A program made the position numbers and the translations under genes. Positions 45,306 through 51,730 of a stretch of DNA of 64,000 bases are shown one piece after another (position 1 is the first letter of the stretch; every line of letters begins with the position of its first letter). The stretch lies in the NCBI GenBank assembly GCA_902586485.1, contig CACIHO010000001.1, forward strand, positions 155,774 to 219,773. The letters are read 5' to 3'. The stretch is from an uncultured Pelagibacteraceae bacterium. Lineage in GTDB: Bacteria > Pseudomonadota > Alphaproteobacteria > Pelagibacterales > Pelagibacteraceae. The notes beneath the pieces were generated by a model. It saw only the letters and a program-made list of their open reading frames with translations, ran no database searches and was not told the origin of the DNA.

Positions 45306-46055
45306 ATGAGTAAAAAAGCAAAAGTTAATGCATCAATTTTAATTATTGGGAATGAAATATTATCTGGTCGTACCCAAGACACTAATACTTCTACTTTAGC
45401 AATTTGGCTTAATTCAATTGGAGTAAATGTATCTGAAGTAAGAGTAATACCTGATGTTGAAGATATTATTGTTGATACTTTAAATTTACTTAGATCTACA
45501 TATGATTACGTTTTTACAACTGGTGGTATTGGTCCAACACATGATGATATTACAGCTCAATCAGTATCAAAGGCTTTTGGAGTAAAATATGAAGTTCACA
45601 AAGAAGCTTTTAAAATATTAGAAGCTTATTATCAGCCAGGTGAATTTAATGATGGAAGACAAAAGATGGCATGGATGCCGGAGAATGCAAAATTAATTTT
45701 AAACCCAACAAGTGGTGCGCCAGGATTTAATGTTGAAAATGTTTTTTCTTTACCAGGGGTTCCATCAATATTAAAATCAATGTTAGGTAGTTTAACTAAT
45801 AGTATAGTTGGGGGCAAACCTATTAAAAGTCTTACAATCAGTTTAAAAACTGTTGAAAGTGAGATAGCTAACTCGTTAACAAAAGTTCAAAATGATAACA
45901 AAGATGTAGAGATAGGAAGCTATCCATTTTTTCATGCAGGAAAATTAGGTGTTTCAATAGTAATAAGGTCAGACGATCAAAGTAAAATAGATAATTGTAA
46001 TGACCAGGTTTTAAAATTTGTGAGTGATAAAAAAATAGAGATAGTGGATAGATAA
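45306..46055 (+). CDS. CinA N-terminal-like (MoaB/Mog domain) protein
   Basis: ASILIIGNEILSGRTQDTNTSTLAIWLNSIGV; FTTGGIGPTHDDITAQSV. Confidence 0.88.
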   Translation: MSKKAKVNASILIIGNEILSGRTQDTNTSTLAIWLNSIGVNVSEVRVIPDVEDIIVDTLNLLRSTYDYVFTTGGIGPTHDDITAQSVSKAFGVKYEVHKEAFKILEAYYQPGEFNDGRQKMAWMPENAKLILNPTSGAPGFNVENVFSLPGVPSILKSMLGSLTNSIVGGKPIKSLTISLKTVESEIANSLTKVQNDNKDVEIGSYPFFHAGKLGVSIVIRSDDQSKIDNCNDQVLKFVSDKKIEIVDR

Positions 46056-46456
46056 TGTTGTATTTTGCATATGGCAGTAATCTTCATCACTTTCAGATGA
46101 AGCGCAGATGTAAAGACAGTATTTTTTTAAAAAAAATTAATCTTAAGGATTTTAAATTAACCTTTAGAAGCAGATATAGGGCAGCAGATATAGAGCGTAA
46201 AAAAAATTCTATTGTTCCTGGAGCTTTATTTGAAATTTCTAAAAATGATGAAAAAAAATTAGATGTATATGAAGATTTTCCAATTCTTTATAAAAAATAT
46301 AATTTTTATTATTATGGAAAAAAAGTAATGACTTACACAATGGTAAAAAAAACACCATTTATGTATCCTACAGAAAGATATTTGAATGTAGTTAAGAGAG
46401 GATATAAAGATTGTAATCTTGATATCAAATACTTAAAAAGAGCACTGGTTTCATAA
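46055..46456 (+). CDS. gamma-glutamylcyclotransferase-like family protein
   Basis: MLYFAYGSNLHHFQMKRRC; VPGALFEISKNDEKKLDVYEDF. Confidence 0.8.
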   Translation: MLYFAYGSNLHHFQMKRRCKDSIFLKKINLKDFKLTFRSRYRAADIERKKNSIVPGALFEISKNDEKKLDVYEDFPILYKKYNFYYYGKKVMTYTMVKKTPFMYPTERYLNVVKRGYKDCNLDIKYLKRALVS

Positions 46457-46472
46457 AATTTTAGTAAAGAAA

Positions 46473-47606
46473 ATGGAATTTTTTATAAATTTAAGCAAAA
46501 GAAATAAAATAATATTTATTTTTCTATCAATTGTGGTTGTAAGTTTTTTTATACAAACAATATCTAAAGGTTTATCCAATAGTTGTGATTTAATGTGGCA
46601 ACCATCTAAATTTTTTTGGGACGGGATAAATCATTATGAATATCAGATGAGAACAGGAGATGTTTTTTTAGGATGTCAACACGGAAGATATGGCCATTTT
46701 TTATTTATTTTTTTATATCCAATAACTCTTCTAGAATGGGAGCAGGCAAAAATTTTATGGATTATACTTAATGTTTTTTTTGCTTTTTTTATACCAATCA
46801 TTCTTTGTAGATCAAATAATGTATCTATTATTTCTACATATTTGATAATAGGAATTTTTTTAACTTGCCACCCTACAAGGATGACACTTAATCTGGGTCA
46901 GAACAGTTTAATGGTGTTATTTTTTTTAATGTTGCCCTTCTTGACAGTTTCAAGTCTATATAAAAACTTTAATTTGATTGCATCAGGTATTTCATATGTA
47001 AAATATAGCACAGGTTATGTGTTATTTTTAAATTTACTTGTCGAAAAAAAAATTAAAAAATTATTATTAACTTCTTTAATAACGATATTTGGCTGGTTAT
47101 TTTATAGCTACTATACAAATAGTCATTTCATTTACAATTTTTTTGAACCACTTAGAATGAATTTTCAAGATAATTATACCAGAACAGGTGACTTGTATTC
47201 GATTATGAATATTTATTTTTTAAAGGAAAATAATGTTATAAATAAAATACTTCAATTAGGAATAGTTATACTTGGAAATATTTATTTTTTATATCAAATT
47301 AAAGATATAAAAAATAAATTAGCAAAATTATCTGTAATTTGTTTCTTACCTTTAATTTTTATGCCGCACTCAAATTATGATTATGTTTTAATGCTACCTT
47401 TGCTTATTTATACTATTAAAAATTATAAATTTCGTTTATCTAAATATGGATTATATTTAACAATTTATTATTTTTATTTTCATAGGATAATTAGACACTT
47501 AATTGATAATGATGTGTTTTATCAATCTGGTATATTTTTAATTTTTACAAGTTTTATAATTTTCTTTGTCAATCATATAAAAAAAAATAATTTAGTTTCA
47601 GAATGA
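46473..47606 (+). CDS. polytopic membrane protein, possibly GT-C/GT87-type glycosyltransferase
   Basis: 377 aa, many TM segments; DUF2029-like look. Confidence 0.5.
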   Translation: MEFFINLSKRNKIIFIFLSIVVVSFFIQTISKGLSNSCDLMWQPSKFFWDGINHYEYQMRTGDVFLGCQHGRYGHFLFIFLYPITLLEWEQAKILWIILNVFFAFFIPIILCRSNNVSIISTYLIIGIFLTCHPTRMTLNLGQNSLMVLFFLMLPFLTVSSLYKNFNLIASGISYVKYSTGYVLFLNLLVEKKIKKLLLTSLITIFGWLFYSYYTNSHFIYNFFEPLRMNFQDNYTRTGDLYSIMNIYFLKENNVINKILQLGIVILGNIYFLYQIKDIKNKLAKLSVICFLPLIFMPHSNYDYVLMLPLLIYTIKNYKFRLSKYGLYLTIYYFYFHRIIRHLIDNDVFYQSGIFLIFTSFIIFFVNHIKKNNLVSE

Positions 47607-48619
47607 AAAAAAAAATATTAATCACAGGTTCAAATGGTTTTCTAGGCAATCTTGCTAAAGAATATTTTATCCATAATTATGAATTAGTATTTGTTGATTT
47701 ATCTAGTTCAAATGATGCAAATTTTTATAAAGTAGACATAGGAAATTTTTCAGAAATAGATGATGTTATTAGCAAGGAAAAACCAAATATAATTTTTCAT
47801 TTTGCATCTGAAATATTTGATACTCATGACAAAGAGAAAATATATAAAACAAATGTAGAGGGGTCTAAAAATATAAAAAAATCAGCAATAAAAAATAATG
47901 TTGAAAATTTAATTTTTACTTCAACATTTTCACTTTATGAAAAAAATTATGATTATTTAATTAGCGAGTCCGAACCAATTTCATGTAAAAATTATTATGG
48001 AATAACAAAATTTGAAGTTGAGACATTTTTATTGGACACGGACTCTGAATTAAATATTTCAATTTTTAGATGTCCAATCATTGTTGATAAATCTAGAGCT
48101 CACCGTCTGGGAGTGCTTTTTGAATTTTTAAAAGACAATAGTACTCTTTGGATTTTAGGAGATGGTTCTAATAAACTACAATTTGTGTCTGCATCTGATC
48201 TATTTATTGCAATTGAAAAATCCATAAATTTAAAAGGAAAGCATGTCTATAATATTGGGTGTGAAAAAGTTGAGACAATGAAAGAAACTTTTCAATATCT
48301 CATAGATAAAACTGGCTCAAAATCTAAAATAAGACATTTTAATAAAAATTTAGGTCTTCTTATTTTGAAGATATTATCTTTTTTACGTCTTATAAATTTT
48401 ATAGATTATCATAATAAAATTCTTGTAAGTAATATTGTATTGGATATTTCAAAGATTAAAAAAGATTTAAACTTTATACCAACCAAAAGCACCGCTGAAC
48501 TTATGTTGGATGCTCACAATTACTATTTGAGTAATAATAGTGGTAATCAAAAAGGATCAGCTATCAAACCAAAAATGGGATTTTTTTCTGTAATCAAATT
48601 TATTTCAAAAATAATATAA
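47603..48619 (+). CDS. NAD-dependent epimerase/dehydratase
   Basis: KILITGSNGFLGNLAKEYF; SxnYYGITKFEVE (YxxxK). Confidence 0.87.
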   Translation: MKKKILITGSNGFLGNLAKEYFIHNYELVFVDLSSSNDANFYKVDIGNFSEIDDVISKEKPNIIFHFASEIFDTHDKEKIYKTNVEGSKNIKKSAIKNNVENLIFTSTFSLYEKNYDYLISESEPISCKNYYGITKFEVETFLLDTDSELNISIFRCPIIVDKSRAHRLGVLFEFLKDNSTLWILGDGSNKLQFVSASDLFIAIEKSINLKGKHVYNIGCEKVETMKETFQYLIDKTGSKSKIRHFNKNLGLLILKILSFLRLINFIDYHNKILVSNIVLDISKIKKDLNFIPTKSTAELMLDAHNYYLSNNSGNQKGSAIKPKMGFFSVIKFISKII

Positions 48620-48645
48620 TATTATAAAAAAATTTACTTATTACT

Positions 48646-48737
48646 CTTGTTCAATTATTAATATTAGCATAATTACTCATGAAATTAACAAATGCCCTCG
48701 TGGTGAAATTGGTAGACACATAGGACTCAATATCCTT
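48646..48737 (+). repeat. direct repeat copy 1 (promoter region + 5' half of tRNA-Leu)
   Basis: 86/92 identity by manual alignment to 50822..50913, no gaps. Confidence 0.9.
48694..48737 (+). pseudogene. truncated tRNA-Leu(CAA): acceptor 5' strand, D arm and anticodon arm only
   Basis: GCCCTCGTGGTGAAATTGGTAGACACATAGGACTCAATATCCTT; no variable arm, T arm or 3' acceptor follows. Confidence 0.85.
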
Positions 48738-49957
48738 TAAAGATAAAATTTATTATCTTCGTTGACTGCTTTTTCTAATCTTATTAAAAAATCTGGTATA
48801 GCACTTTTAACTCTACTCCAAGTTGGTATAAATGGAGCATCCATAGGATTTAAATAAAAATCTTCTCCTGCTTTAATTATATTTTTAGAAAATAATTCTA
48901 CAGCCTTTTCTTCAGAATGAGAGTCAAATTTCAAACCATTCATTTCAGCATCGCCTCTATAAGCGTCAATTAAATCAAGTGCTGATCTATAATAAGTTGC
49001 TTTAAGTGATCTTAATTGCTCTCTACTAAACGAGTGACCTTGTGTAGCAAGTTTTTTAATAAAAGTTTTAATTATGTCAATGGACATTCTTGAAAGACCT
49101 TTTTTTTCATTATCAATAGATAAATCCTGATGTTTATGGTCATAAGTATCGGCTAAATCAACCTGACAAATATTTTGAGGAGAAAAGTTTCTTTGCATTT
49201 CCGACAAAATTCCAATTTCTATTCCCCAGTCTGATGAAATTCTTAATTCTGGTAGAATATTTCTTCTAAAAGAAAATTCTCCAGCTAGTGGATATTTAAA
49301 TGATTTCATAAAATCTAAATATTCACTTTTACCTATGGTTTTTTCTAAAGCGTTTAATAGTGGGAACACTAATAGCCTGGCTACTCTTCCATTCATTTTG
49401 TTATCTGCTACCCTAGGATAGTAACCTTTGCAAAATTCAAAATTGAACAATGGATTAACTACTGGATAAAATAATTTTGCTAACATTCTTCGATCATATG
49501 TTTTTATATCACAATCATGTAAAGCAACAGATCTTGCACTATTTCTTGCTATAGACATTCCTATGCAGTACCAAACATTTCTGCCTTTGCCTTTTTCATT
49601 CGGTGCTAATTCTTTTTTTTGTAATTCTTTATCTAATTTTTTTAAATTTGGACCATCGTTCCAAAGTATTGTGAATGGGGTTTCTAATTTTTCAAAAAAT
49701 GTCCATGCTTTTCTGGCTTGTTTTTCGTTAGCTTGATCTAGTCCTATTATTATGTGATGTAGATAATTAGTTTGAGCAATTTCAGAAACAATTTTTGGTA
49801 ATGCATCTCCATTTAACTCGCTATAAAGACAAGGCAATATAAGTTCCATTTTTCTCTCTTTTGAAAAACTTAAAAGCTCTTTTTCTATTTGCTTTGTTGA
49901 CTTTGTTCCAAAGTCATGAAGTGTTGAAATAATACCATTTTGCGAAAAATCACTCAT
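48737..49957 (-). CDS. gpgS: glucosyl-3-phosphoglycerate synthase-like (GT81)
   Basis: ELILPCLYSELNGDALPKIV; VALHDCDIKTYDRRML; PLAGEFSFRR. Confidence 0.8.
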   Translation of the reverse strand: MSDFSQNGIISTLHDFGTKSTKQIEKELLSFSKERKMELILPCLYSELNGDALPKIVSEIAQTNYLHHIIIGLDQANEKQARKAWTFFEKLETPFTILWNDGPNLKKLDKELQKKELAPNEKGKGRNVWYCIGMSIARNSARSVALHDCDIKTYDRRMLAKLFYPVVNPLFNFEFCKGYYPRVADNKMNGRVARLLVFPLLNALEKTIGKSEYLDFMKSFKYPLAGEFSFRRNILPELRISSDWGIEIGILSEMQRNFSPQNICQVDLADTYDHKHQDLSIDNEKKGLSRMSIDIIKTFIKKLATQGHSFSREQLRSLKATYYRSALDLIDAYRGDAEMNGLKFDSHSEEKAVELFSKNIIKAGEDFYLNPMDAPFIPTWSRVKSAIPDFLIRLEKAVNEDNKFYL

Positions 49958-49968
49958 AATTCATTCTA

Positions 49969-50772
49969 TTAATTTTCGTTTATTTTAACTAGAGCCATTT
50001 TAATCACATCTGCCCAGCCTTCAGGAGATGGTTTATTTGTTATTATTAAATTATTTATAGGAATTTCATCTAAAGTGAATTTGTCATTGAATACTAAGCA
50101 TGGAAAATCACTCTTTTTTAGCATGTCTAAATCATTGTAATTATCACCAACAGCTATTGTTTTTATATTTTTATTATTTTTTTTTAAAAATCTTACAAAT
50201 ATTTGAAGAGCCTTAGCTTTACTAACTCTATCAGTTAAATTAATAACTCTTCCTCCCTCTTGTAAATAAAGATCTTCATTTTTAATTATCTTAGATAATT
50301 CATTTCTTTGGTTTTTAGTTCCCTCAAATACAAATGGAATAGTGTATTTACGATTTAAAGCCATATTTAGTTTTTTATCTTCTAAACCAAAAACTAAACT
50401 TTGTTTTTTATTATTCATTTCATAAACCCATTTGCATTTATTTTGCAGGTTTGTTGGAACTATATTTTTAAAAATATTTAAAAGATCATCCTTTTCTCTG
50501 CTAAGAATTAATTCTTTAGGTAGATCTTCATTAAACAATTCTAAGCCATTAATAGCTGCTCCATTTTCTGAAATAAAAGGTAAATTTGATCCTAACTCAT
50601 AATTAAATTGTAAAATTTCTTTCTCAGTTTTACTAGTATTGGGTATTATAAAAATACCTTTTGATATTAGTTGTTTTAAATAGTCTTTTATTTCGTCAAA
50701 TCTAAACGTATCTCTATGAAGCAGAGAACCGTCTAAGTCAGTAAATATCAAAACTTTGATCGCTTTTTCCAT
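49969..50772 (-). CDS. HAD-IIB phosphatase, mannosyl/glucosyl-3-phosphoglycerate phosphatase-like
   Basis: LIFTDLDGSLLHRDTF; IAVGDNYNDLDMLKKSD; paired with gpgS. Confidence 0.8.
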   Translation of the reverse strand: MEKAIKVLIFTDLDGSLLHRDTFRFDEIKDYLKQLISKGIFIIPNTSKTEKEILQFNYELGSNLPFISENGAAINGLELFNEDLPKELILSREKDDLLNIFKNIVPTNLQNKCKWVYEMNNKKQSLVFGLEDKKLNMALNRKYTIPFVFEGTKNQRNELSKIIKNEDLYLQEGGRVINLTDRVSKAKALQIFVRFLKKNNKNIKTIAVGDNYNDLDMLKKSDFPCLVFNDKFTLDEIPINNLIITNKPSPEGWADVIKMALVKINEN

Positions 50773-50821
50773 AATTGATATTTATAAAATATTCTAATAA
50801 ATAACAATTTTACTAATTAAA

Positions 50822-50913
50822 CTTGTTCAATTATAAATATTAGCATAAATACTCATGAAATTCACAAATGCCCTCGTGGTGAAATTGGTAGACACAAAGG
50901 ACTTAAAATCCTT
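50822..50913 (+). repeat. direct repeat copy 2 (promoter region + 5' half of intact tRNA-Leu)
   Basis: See copy 1 at 48646..48737. Confidence 0.9.
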
Positions 50914-50955
50914 GCCGCTTGCGGAGTGCCAGTTCGAGTCTGGCCGAGGGCACCA
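50870..50955 (+). tRNA. tRNA-Leu(UAA)
   Basis: Full cloverleaf GCCCTCG...CGAGGGC-A-CCA; anticodon loop CTTAAAA; long variable arm. Confidence 0.96.
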
Positions 50956-50959
50956 CTAA

Positions 50960-51730
50960 ATGAACAAACTTCAAATTATTTCTGATAAAAATAGAAAATC
51001 TTTAAGAATCAAAAATTTATTATTAAAAAAAATAAAATCTAATAAGTTTAAAAAAAAAAATCTAATAATAGTAATTGGAGGCGATGGTTTTATGCTTCAA
51101 ACGCTTAAAAAAAACAAAAATTTTAATAAACAGTTTTATGGAATTAATTCAGGAAATTACGGTTTCCTTATGAATAAATTATCATCAAAAGATATTATTA
51201 AAAATCTTCAAAAAGCAAATATGGTTTCAATTTCTCCTTTAGAAATGATTGTCAAAAATAAGAATAATCAAATCAAAAAATCTATAGCAATAAATGAAGT
51301 TTCTGTATTAAGACAAAGTAGACAAGCTGCTTCACTATCAATTAAACAGGGATCAAGAATAATAATAAAAAAATTAGTTTCAGATGGAGTATTAGTTTCA
51401 ACACCGGCCGGAAGCACAGCTTACAATATGTCGGTCCATGGACCAATCTTAAGTCTACATTCAAAAAAATTATCAATTTCTCCTATTAGTGCTTTTAGAC
51501 CAAGAAGATGGAAGGGTAAAATAGTTAATGATAAAATTAAAATTATTATAACAAATCTAAATCCTTCAAAAAGACCAATAAGTGCAGTAGCAGATAATTT
51601 AGAAGTTAGAAATGCAAAATCTATAACTGTGAAAACTAATACTAAAATCAAATTTAATCTTCTGTATGACAAAAATAGAAGCTTGCAAAAAAAGATTAAA
51701 ATTGAACAAATAAGAAGAGAGACCAGTTAG
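50960..51730 (+). CDS. nadK: NAD kinase
   Basis: IVIGGDGFMLQTL; YGINSGNYGFLMN; VSTPAGSTAYNMSVHGPI. Confidence 0.9.
   Translation: MNKLQIISDKNRKSLRIKNLLLKKIKSNKFKKKNLIIVIGGDGFMLQTLKKNKNFNKQFYGINSGNYGFLMNKLSSKDIIKNLQKANMVSISPLEMIVKNKNNQIKKSIAINEVSVLRQSRQAASLSIKQGSRIIIKKLVSDGVLVSTPAGSTAYNMSVHGPILSLHSKKLSISPISAFRPRRWKGKIVNDKIKIIITNLNPSKRPISAVADNLEVRNAKSITVKTNTKIKFNLLYDKNRSLQKKIKIEQIRRETS

Follow-up and report, generated by a model that had tools for sequence, protein, structure and literature searches.

A truncated tRNA-Leu(UAA) copy in a SAR11 genomic island as the probable scar of integrating, mostly integrase-less cassettes

How does the front half of a tRNA gene, together with its leader, come to stand at the end of a gpgS gene? 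The window analysed here (64,000 nucleotides of an uncultured Pelagibacteraceae bacterium, contig CACIHO010000001.1, positions 155,774 to 219,773) holds an ungapped direct repeat, 48646-48737 against 50822-50913, in which 86 of 92 bases are identical and which extends leftwards to 48627 and 50803, giving 111 nt at 90%. ARAGORN finds a complete tRNA-Leu(UAA) at 50870-50955 (plus strand), preceded by its leader at 50803-50869 (plus), and calls no tRNA on the first repeat copy (48646-48737). As the initial annotation described and our analysis bears out, this upstream copy consists of leader and tRNA 5' half: the repeat alignment places the decayed leader, promoter-like region included, at 48627-48693 (plus), and the same alignment together with relatives places the 5' half at 48694-48737 (plus), with a mutated anticodon loop that reads CTCAATA at 48726-48732 and is directly followed by TCCTT at 48733-48737. 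The copy breaks off after the anticodon stem, with its final base shared by the stop codon of gpgS (48737-48739, minus; a 1-nt overlap), and what is duplicated is the 5' half and promoter of tRNA-Leu(UAA), not its 3' end. We term the leader promoter-like solely because of its position and conservation; a consensus promoter scan of the window gave sites no commoner than in shuffles, and none at either leader.

The truncated copy, below called the scar, lies in a variable island (46457-50869) made up of two genes, the scar, a reversed gene pair and an uninterrupted tRNA. The left border is a short conserved protein gene (46055-46456, plus) that is kept in relatives; its protein, which we take to be gamma-glutamylcyclotransferase-like (GGCT), has no match in NCBIfam. 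To the left of the scar lie a GT87 glycosyltransferase gene (46473-47606, plus; PF09594), which was found in none of the other fetched loci, and, directly adjoining the scar, an NAD-dependent epimerase gene (47603-48619, plus; PF01370); both point the way most cassette genes do. Between the repeat copies are the two minus-strand genes already noted in the initial annotation, gpgS for glucosyl-3-phosphoglycerate synthase (48737-49957), which ends at the scar and is conserved in the same island of relatives, and a HAD-IIB phosphatase gene of the mannosyl-3-phosphoglycerate phosphatase type (49969-50772); their best NCBIfam models are indeed GpgS and mannosyl-3-phosphoglycerate phosphatase, with scores below the curated cut-offs. 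The NAD kinase gene (50960-51730, plus) forms the right border. No integrase gene lies between the repeat copies, and a PF00589 search of the window's genome (G000) found none at the island, the sole match being on another contig.

In a search of 61 genomes, many of the same genus proved to have extra copies of leader and tRNA 5' half, which break off in the anticodon loop or stem and lie 1-20 kb upstream of the complete gene. A 112-nt query matched 220 of 300 genus genomes, about half of these with two matches when at most two candidates were scored per genome. Because homologous fragments occupy the same place in many relatives, this comparison excludes a chance origin of the repeat. An assembly error is likewise an unlikely source of the fragment, since homologous scars recur in many independent genomes. 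The backbone is conserved, with MAP-sfsA-moaB-GGCT on the left and NAD kinase on the right, and the variable island lies between GGCT and the tRNA. We fetched islands from about 60 genomes, partly picked for having two copies and many of them incomplete, and obtained 60 intervals (at least 500 nt between successive copies) from some 45 loci. Within the genus the tRNA has been split repeatedly, with a truncated copy left upstream each time, which substantiates the earlier suggestion that the fragment marks insertion activity at tRNA-Leu(UAA). A filled site is seen in a close relative, G022, that is 95% identical to the window across the region. There the window's intact tRNA is cut at TTAAAA, after a 97%-identical leader and 5' half, by a 4.1-kb element that has CCAGCAC pairs at both ends and is followed by a complete tRNA; its cargo encodes a HalD-like oxygenase, a dehydrogenase-like protein, a class II aldolase and an F420-dehydrogenase-like protein. 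The stretch between NAD kinase and trmH is also variable in four loci (L033, L035, L037, L064), by up to about 7 kb, which suggests another insertion site near tRNA-Thr.

The elements that split tRNA-Leu(UAA) have a median length of 2.4 kb and a common anatomy. In the great majority of intervals an arm comes after the left copy, whose last bases, in the anticodon loop, are TTAAAA; in the window's intact tRNA the corresponding loop, CTTAAAA at 50902-50908, is where the identity of target and element ends. The left arms are of few types (GCCGAGGGAT..., AACATAGGGT..., TAGTTTGA...), contain three AGTC-type repeats spaced by about 11 bp, and lead into ATCCTATAAAATC and then, at about 125 nt, into a short direct-repeat pair, spaced by 11 bp, which we call the barcode. 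At the right end the order is inverse motif GATTTTATAGGATAAC, the element's barcode again, GAGATAAA, and then the leader and 5' half with which the tRNA is made whole. The crossover in the loop and a duplicated part that completes the gene are as in anticodon-loop tRNA-targeting elements, the part being here the 5' half; in tRNA-targeting elements it is usually the 3' half. Barcodes vary by element (CCAGCAC, CTAGAAAC, CTGGTAC, CTCGGAAC, CTATTAC, CTTGTAC and others), and the right-end repeat is present in 47 of the 60 intervals, nearly always with the 11-bp spacing. The two ends of one element match each other, with a mean best 20-mer of 17.9/20 as against 13.4/20 when compared with other elements; the highest mean in 10,000 permutations was 14.66, which is not a strict probability because related elements are not independent. 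One element of G016 (C5, L048 9464-13632) has a left barcode, CTGGTAC, that matches the right barcode two scars further on, with an old unarmed scar inside, and this compound element may hold captured chromosomal DNA. Many unrelated cassettes, for example L066, L119, L135 and L158, conserve the DNA sequence of a signal-peptide start (ATGAAAAAACTTTTAGGGATCGTGGTTCTGGG, MKKLLGIVVLGL) close to both their left and right ends; perhaps it is a recombination seam.

Where would the recombinase come from? Only 3 of the 60 intervals at the tRNA encode an integrase, leaving 57 without one. The three, in G144, G192 and G226, are 7.7-10 kb long and carry in addition a primase-helicase-like protein and small proteins. 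Their layout recurs in L068, a 7.8-kb contig that comes, like L083 and L087, from a viral-contig collection and bears the tRNA 5' half at each end, as a circle would be expected to; its proteins match integrase, DUF5906/primase and RusA-like families, and none matched the capsid families scanned. The element ends lie in tRNA-Leu(UAA), as in satellites that integrate at tRNA genes, and a tyrosine recombinase is present in L068, L115, L116 and L117. Among 300 genus genomes, 5 have an integrase of the L068 type, and G000 is not one of them; a scan of one genome per species of GTDB r220 gave none. The initial annotation was right that the interval holds no integrase, but its reasoning away from integrases does not hold, since the attP of SAR11 satellites and phages has precisely this 5' half as its core. 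The contigs L069, L072, L074, L075, L078, L080, L082, L085, L086 and L088 look like phage and carry an attP for this part of tRNA-Leu; in several of them the integrase gene ends just upstream of the core, and their attP arms differ while the target is the same.

Integrase-bearing and integrase-less elements have much of their ends in common. The left arm of the G144 satellite is identical at 48 of 52 positions to that of an integrase-less cassette in G009, and the G192 satellite and a cassette in G163 agree at 51 of 52. The barcodes of the same two satellites, CCAGCAC (G144) and CTAGAAAC (G192), turn up again in several genomes, in integrase-less cassettes that differ in cargo, and a cassette in G084 carries CTAGGATC, the barcode of the L083 satellite. 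These common arms and barcodes support mobilisation in trans, short of proving it. The predicted structure of the L068 integrase is weak (mean pLDDT 52), so we use only its catalytic part and the lambda-like ranking: the best PDB fold matches are lambda integrase complexes, and a PDB sequence search with the integrase alignment gave no match. A three-stranded sheet and helix modelled at residues 66-121 would be in the position of the arm-binding domain of lambda-type integrases. The L068 and L089 integrases, which have a barcode in common, are 94% identical in the sheet, whereas L068 and L083, whose barcodes differ, are 69% identical there and 93-96% in the rest; in this one pair 11 of the 55 differences fall within the 36 sheet residues (p about 3e-4). 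The L087 and G192 integrases have similar barcodes, with N-terminal regions at 66-88% and a core-binding region at 49%, and for L068 against L087 the order is reversed (N-terminal 37-58%, core-binding region 89%). Comparison of these six integrases is thus suggestive of an N-terminal region that follows the barcode and not the rest of the protein.

A right-arm pattern of the elements matched 45 of 151 genus genomes (reversed control, 0) and pointed to a second insertion site away from the tRNA. Several matches sit before a gene for a 75-aa protein (MNKENASKLWKMIQEAGDYL...), for which a Pfam search gave no family, and here arms come after truncated copies of the gene's 5' part, which end in GGCGATTATTT. 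Barcodes match at this site too (10 elements, two of them near-identical; own ends 17.0 against 15.0, exact permutation p 3e-4). We found no viral attP for it. In the window's own genome this second site is occupied, on contig C3 (L172 2781-9533): two armed cassettes, each with barcodes that match, stand before the 75-aa protein gene, and one of them encodes a type III restriction-modification system (methyltransferase and restriction enzyme). G000 therefore does carry armed cassettes, though not in the window.

The cargo runs mostly one way. Of the 131 ORFs with 100 aa or more in 47 armed integrase-less elements, 120 are directed away from the left scar; the first ORF is so directed in 42 of the 47 and mostly starts 160-230 nt past the crossover. 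Since the leader left upstream belongs to the tRNA, its retained promoter may serve to transcribe each cassette, much as Pc does for integron cassettes. Restriction cargo at tRNA-Leu includes type I (L127) and type IIG-like (L124, L141) systems, a type I/II methylase with specificity subunit (L054) and an Mrr-domain protein (L050). Four loci (L121 4042-9345, L126, L137, L139) hold runs of type IV pilin-like genes, up to nine per element, with a nearly identical N-terminus (FTLIELLVVVAIIGILAAVG.VAYNGYT). The G163 cassette whose left arm agrees with that of the G192 satellite (L122 10408-15572) encodes a two-domain binding-protein-dependent transporter; a link is possible with the phn genes that adjoin tRNA genes and recombinases in Pelagibacterales (PMC12416821). 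Another cassette, six kb long in G148 (L152 8750-14737), has a weak ZorA/MotA-like match and several membrane proteins and is possibly an uncharacterised defence or transport module.

Our analysis suggests, then, that 48627-48737 is probably the attachment-site scar of elements that integrate into tRNA-Leu(UAA) and accumulate in arrays of mostly integrase-less cassettes, the intact tRNA at 50870-50955 being the attachment site. An incoming element would cross over in the anticodon loop and enter between the two halves of the tRNA. Its right end would bring a spare leader, with promoter, and 5' half that complete the tRNA (in relatives the leader of the intact gene is supplied by the right end of each inserted element), and the old leader and 5' half would stay upstream as a truncated copy. 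Repeated insertion would build an array whose newest member adjoins the intact tRNA. Most members are 1-6 kb cassettes devoid of an integrase; a trans-acting integrase, encoded by satellite-like elements or related phages with the same target, would move them, and it would recognise the barcode pairs (11-bp spacing) at the two ends as its arm-type sites. Old members would lose their arms by deletion and remain as residents. Seen in this light, the window island would be in an old, nearly silent state, with one decayed scar and a target tRNA that is empty at present, and by array order the gpgS-HAD pair would be an early cassette that has lost its arms. We regard it as an old resident because about a dozen genomes have it immediately to the left of the oldest leader that can be recognised. 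It is also flanked by a scar on its left in G000, G022, G074, G117, G146 and G116. The initial annotation proposed to ask whether genomes with and without the cassette carry the truncated copy, and here the outcome is mixed: other cassettes in other genomes have similar scars, and G112 and G305 carry gpgS abutting GGCT with no left scar, which shows that a fragment of this type is not peculiar to gpgS. According to the gpgS tree there were either two losses or two gains.

How well do other explanations account for the same facts? The initial annotation had suggested the decay of an ancestral tandem pair, tRNA-Leu(CAA)-tRNA-Leu(UAA), on the strength of the CAA in the loop, and this we find hardly credible. 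A tRNA-Leu(CAA), whose presence elsewhere the annotation had proposed to look for, exists on another contig of G000 (an assembly about 79% complete), and when aligned to the fragment it differs throughout, leader included; the fragment follows tRNA-Leu(UAA). Moreover, the fragments in G022, G074, G117 and G146, which adjoin at the same junction gpgS genes whose proteins are 98-99% identical to the window's, all read TTAAAA and carry substitutions at other positions. Because these homologues retain TTAAAA amid other mutations, the CAA reads as drift, one of many independent mutations in dead sequence. Might the scar instead be kept for a function of its own, for example as a promoter or as a source of a tRNA half? 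The armed arrays, where the retained tRNA promoter faces cargo genes, would invite such a view, yet the window scar is directed into the end of gpgS, a gene of the other strand, and decay of the fragment is seen in every relative, which makes a retained function very unlikely.

Two further possibilities concern the elements themselves. The main rival for the gpgS-HAD interval, though not for the armed elements, is homologous or illegitimate recombination that, with no integrase involved, placed a copy of leader and 5' half on the left side of gpgS, or swapped content between existing repeats. The interval is indeed no typical cassette: its tRNA piece runs 5 nt (TCCTT) past the crossover usual in armed elements, gpgS-HAD stands in the minority orientation, opposite to the typical cargo direction, and we found no arms or barcodes around the window's own copy. 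In addition, the content left of the scar varies among G000, G022, G074, G117 and G146 while gpgS-HAD is constant. Against this, the homologous left copy in G022 is preceded by GAGATAAAATAAAAAAATTT, a right-end motif of the elements, and armed elements make the same type of scar precisely and repeatedly at the neighbouring tRNA, and so we judge recombination of this kind unlikely. That gpgS-HAD itself arrived as a cassette is, given its missing arms and reversed direction, only an inference. The other possibility is that of an ordinary prophage or satellite remnant that later lost its integrase, in which case the cassettes would be degraded copies and not mobile units. Phages and integrase-bearing satellites do use the same site, and three full elements lie within the arrays. 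However, for each integrase-bearing element there are about 15 armed ones without an integrase, and these keep intact matched arms and whole one-way cargo operons and have a host-type leader that is absent from the full satellites found; degradation is thus quite an unlikely account.

SAR11 bacteria are among the most abundant heterotrophs of the ocean, and their genomes are streamlined yet variable at hypervariable regions. Scars and armed cassettes would provide a concrete route of gene gain for them, through two fixed sites and an integrase supplied by satellites, and matched barcodes would predict from sequence alone which cassette pairs with which integrase. As restriction systems are among the cargo, the route may shape phage defence. 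Glucosylglycerate synthesis has been reported as unique to offshore SAR11 genera (PMC12636525), and the gpgS-HAD pair belongs to this island. More generally, we propose an integron-like cassette system without integrons in SAR11, in which cassettes stacked at a tRNA and at a protein gene bring the promoter and front end of their target, are addressed by barcodes to the variable N-terminal domain of a trans-acting satellite integrase, are expressed from the retained promoter, and spread restriction and metabolic genes; taken as a whole, this broader proposal seems to us evenly poised between right and wrong.

The closest known kinds are marine phage satellites and integrase-less cassette arrays. 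Tycheposons of Prochlorococcus (the elements of Hackl et al. 2023) and VEIMEs (those of Eppley et al. 2022) reportedly integrate at tRNA genes with a tyrosine recombinase, occur in satellite-like and cargo forms, and remodel islands. Like these, the integrase-bearing SAR11 elements are 7.7-10 kb long and have an integrase and a primase-helicase with no capsid match. Unlike tycheposons and VEIMEs as reported, most SAR11 units are of 1-6 kb, have no integrase and carry barcodes matched at both ends, the element supplies the 5' half and promoter, and the second target is protein-coding. Any claim of novelty for the SAR11 system is provisional.

A relative of pelagiphage HTVC019P has 46 bp identical to a SAR11 tRNA-Leu, together with an integrase (PMC3861242). 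Pelagiphages with such an attP differ from the SAR11 cassettes in being phage genomes, and the passages of PMC3861242 consulted draw no link to island scars. In the additive islands of streamlined aquatic Methylophilaceae, according to the portion of PMC10872708 consulted, 20-bp tRNA-Lys repeats lie between genes in Methylopumilus; the SAR11 island resembles these in being variable, at a tRNA and rich in recurring tRNA fragments, but there the last 20 bp of the tRNA recur and here the promoter and 5' half, and that portion of the paper reports no arms or barcodes.

VEIMEs and tycheposons have been named as marine phage satellites, and integrase-less cassette arrays have been described as CALINs (PMC11389934). 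Like CALINs and integrons, the SAR11 arrays consist of small integrase-less cassettes, probably mobilised in trans, with one-way genes behind a promoter. Unlike them, the SAR11 unit has a lambda- or L5-like attP with arm sites, and its attachment site is a host tRNA or protein gene. In SAR11 hypervariable regions attC sites were not found, and site-specific islands were noted there in 2007 (PMC2217521). Our own inspection of the element ends showed no attC-like structure and no integron integrase, the best PDB fold matches of the integrase being to lambda Int. A further parallel is with cis-mobilisable elements (CIMEs), which are flanked by attachment sites, have neither integrase nor transfer genes, and are moved by the integrase of a related element. 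The SAR11 cassettes likewise have two attachment sites, no integrase and a related integrase-bearing partner; but CIMEs derive from conjugative elements, whereas the partners of the SAR11 cassettes are satellites or phages.
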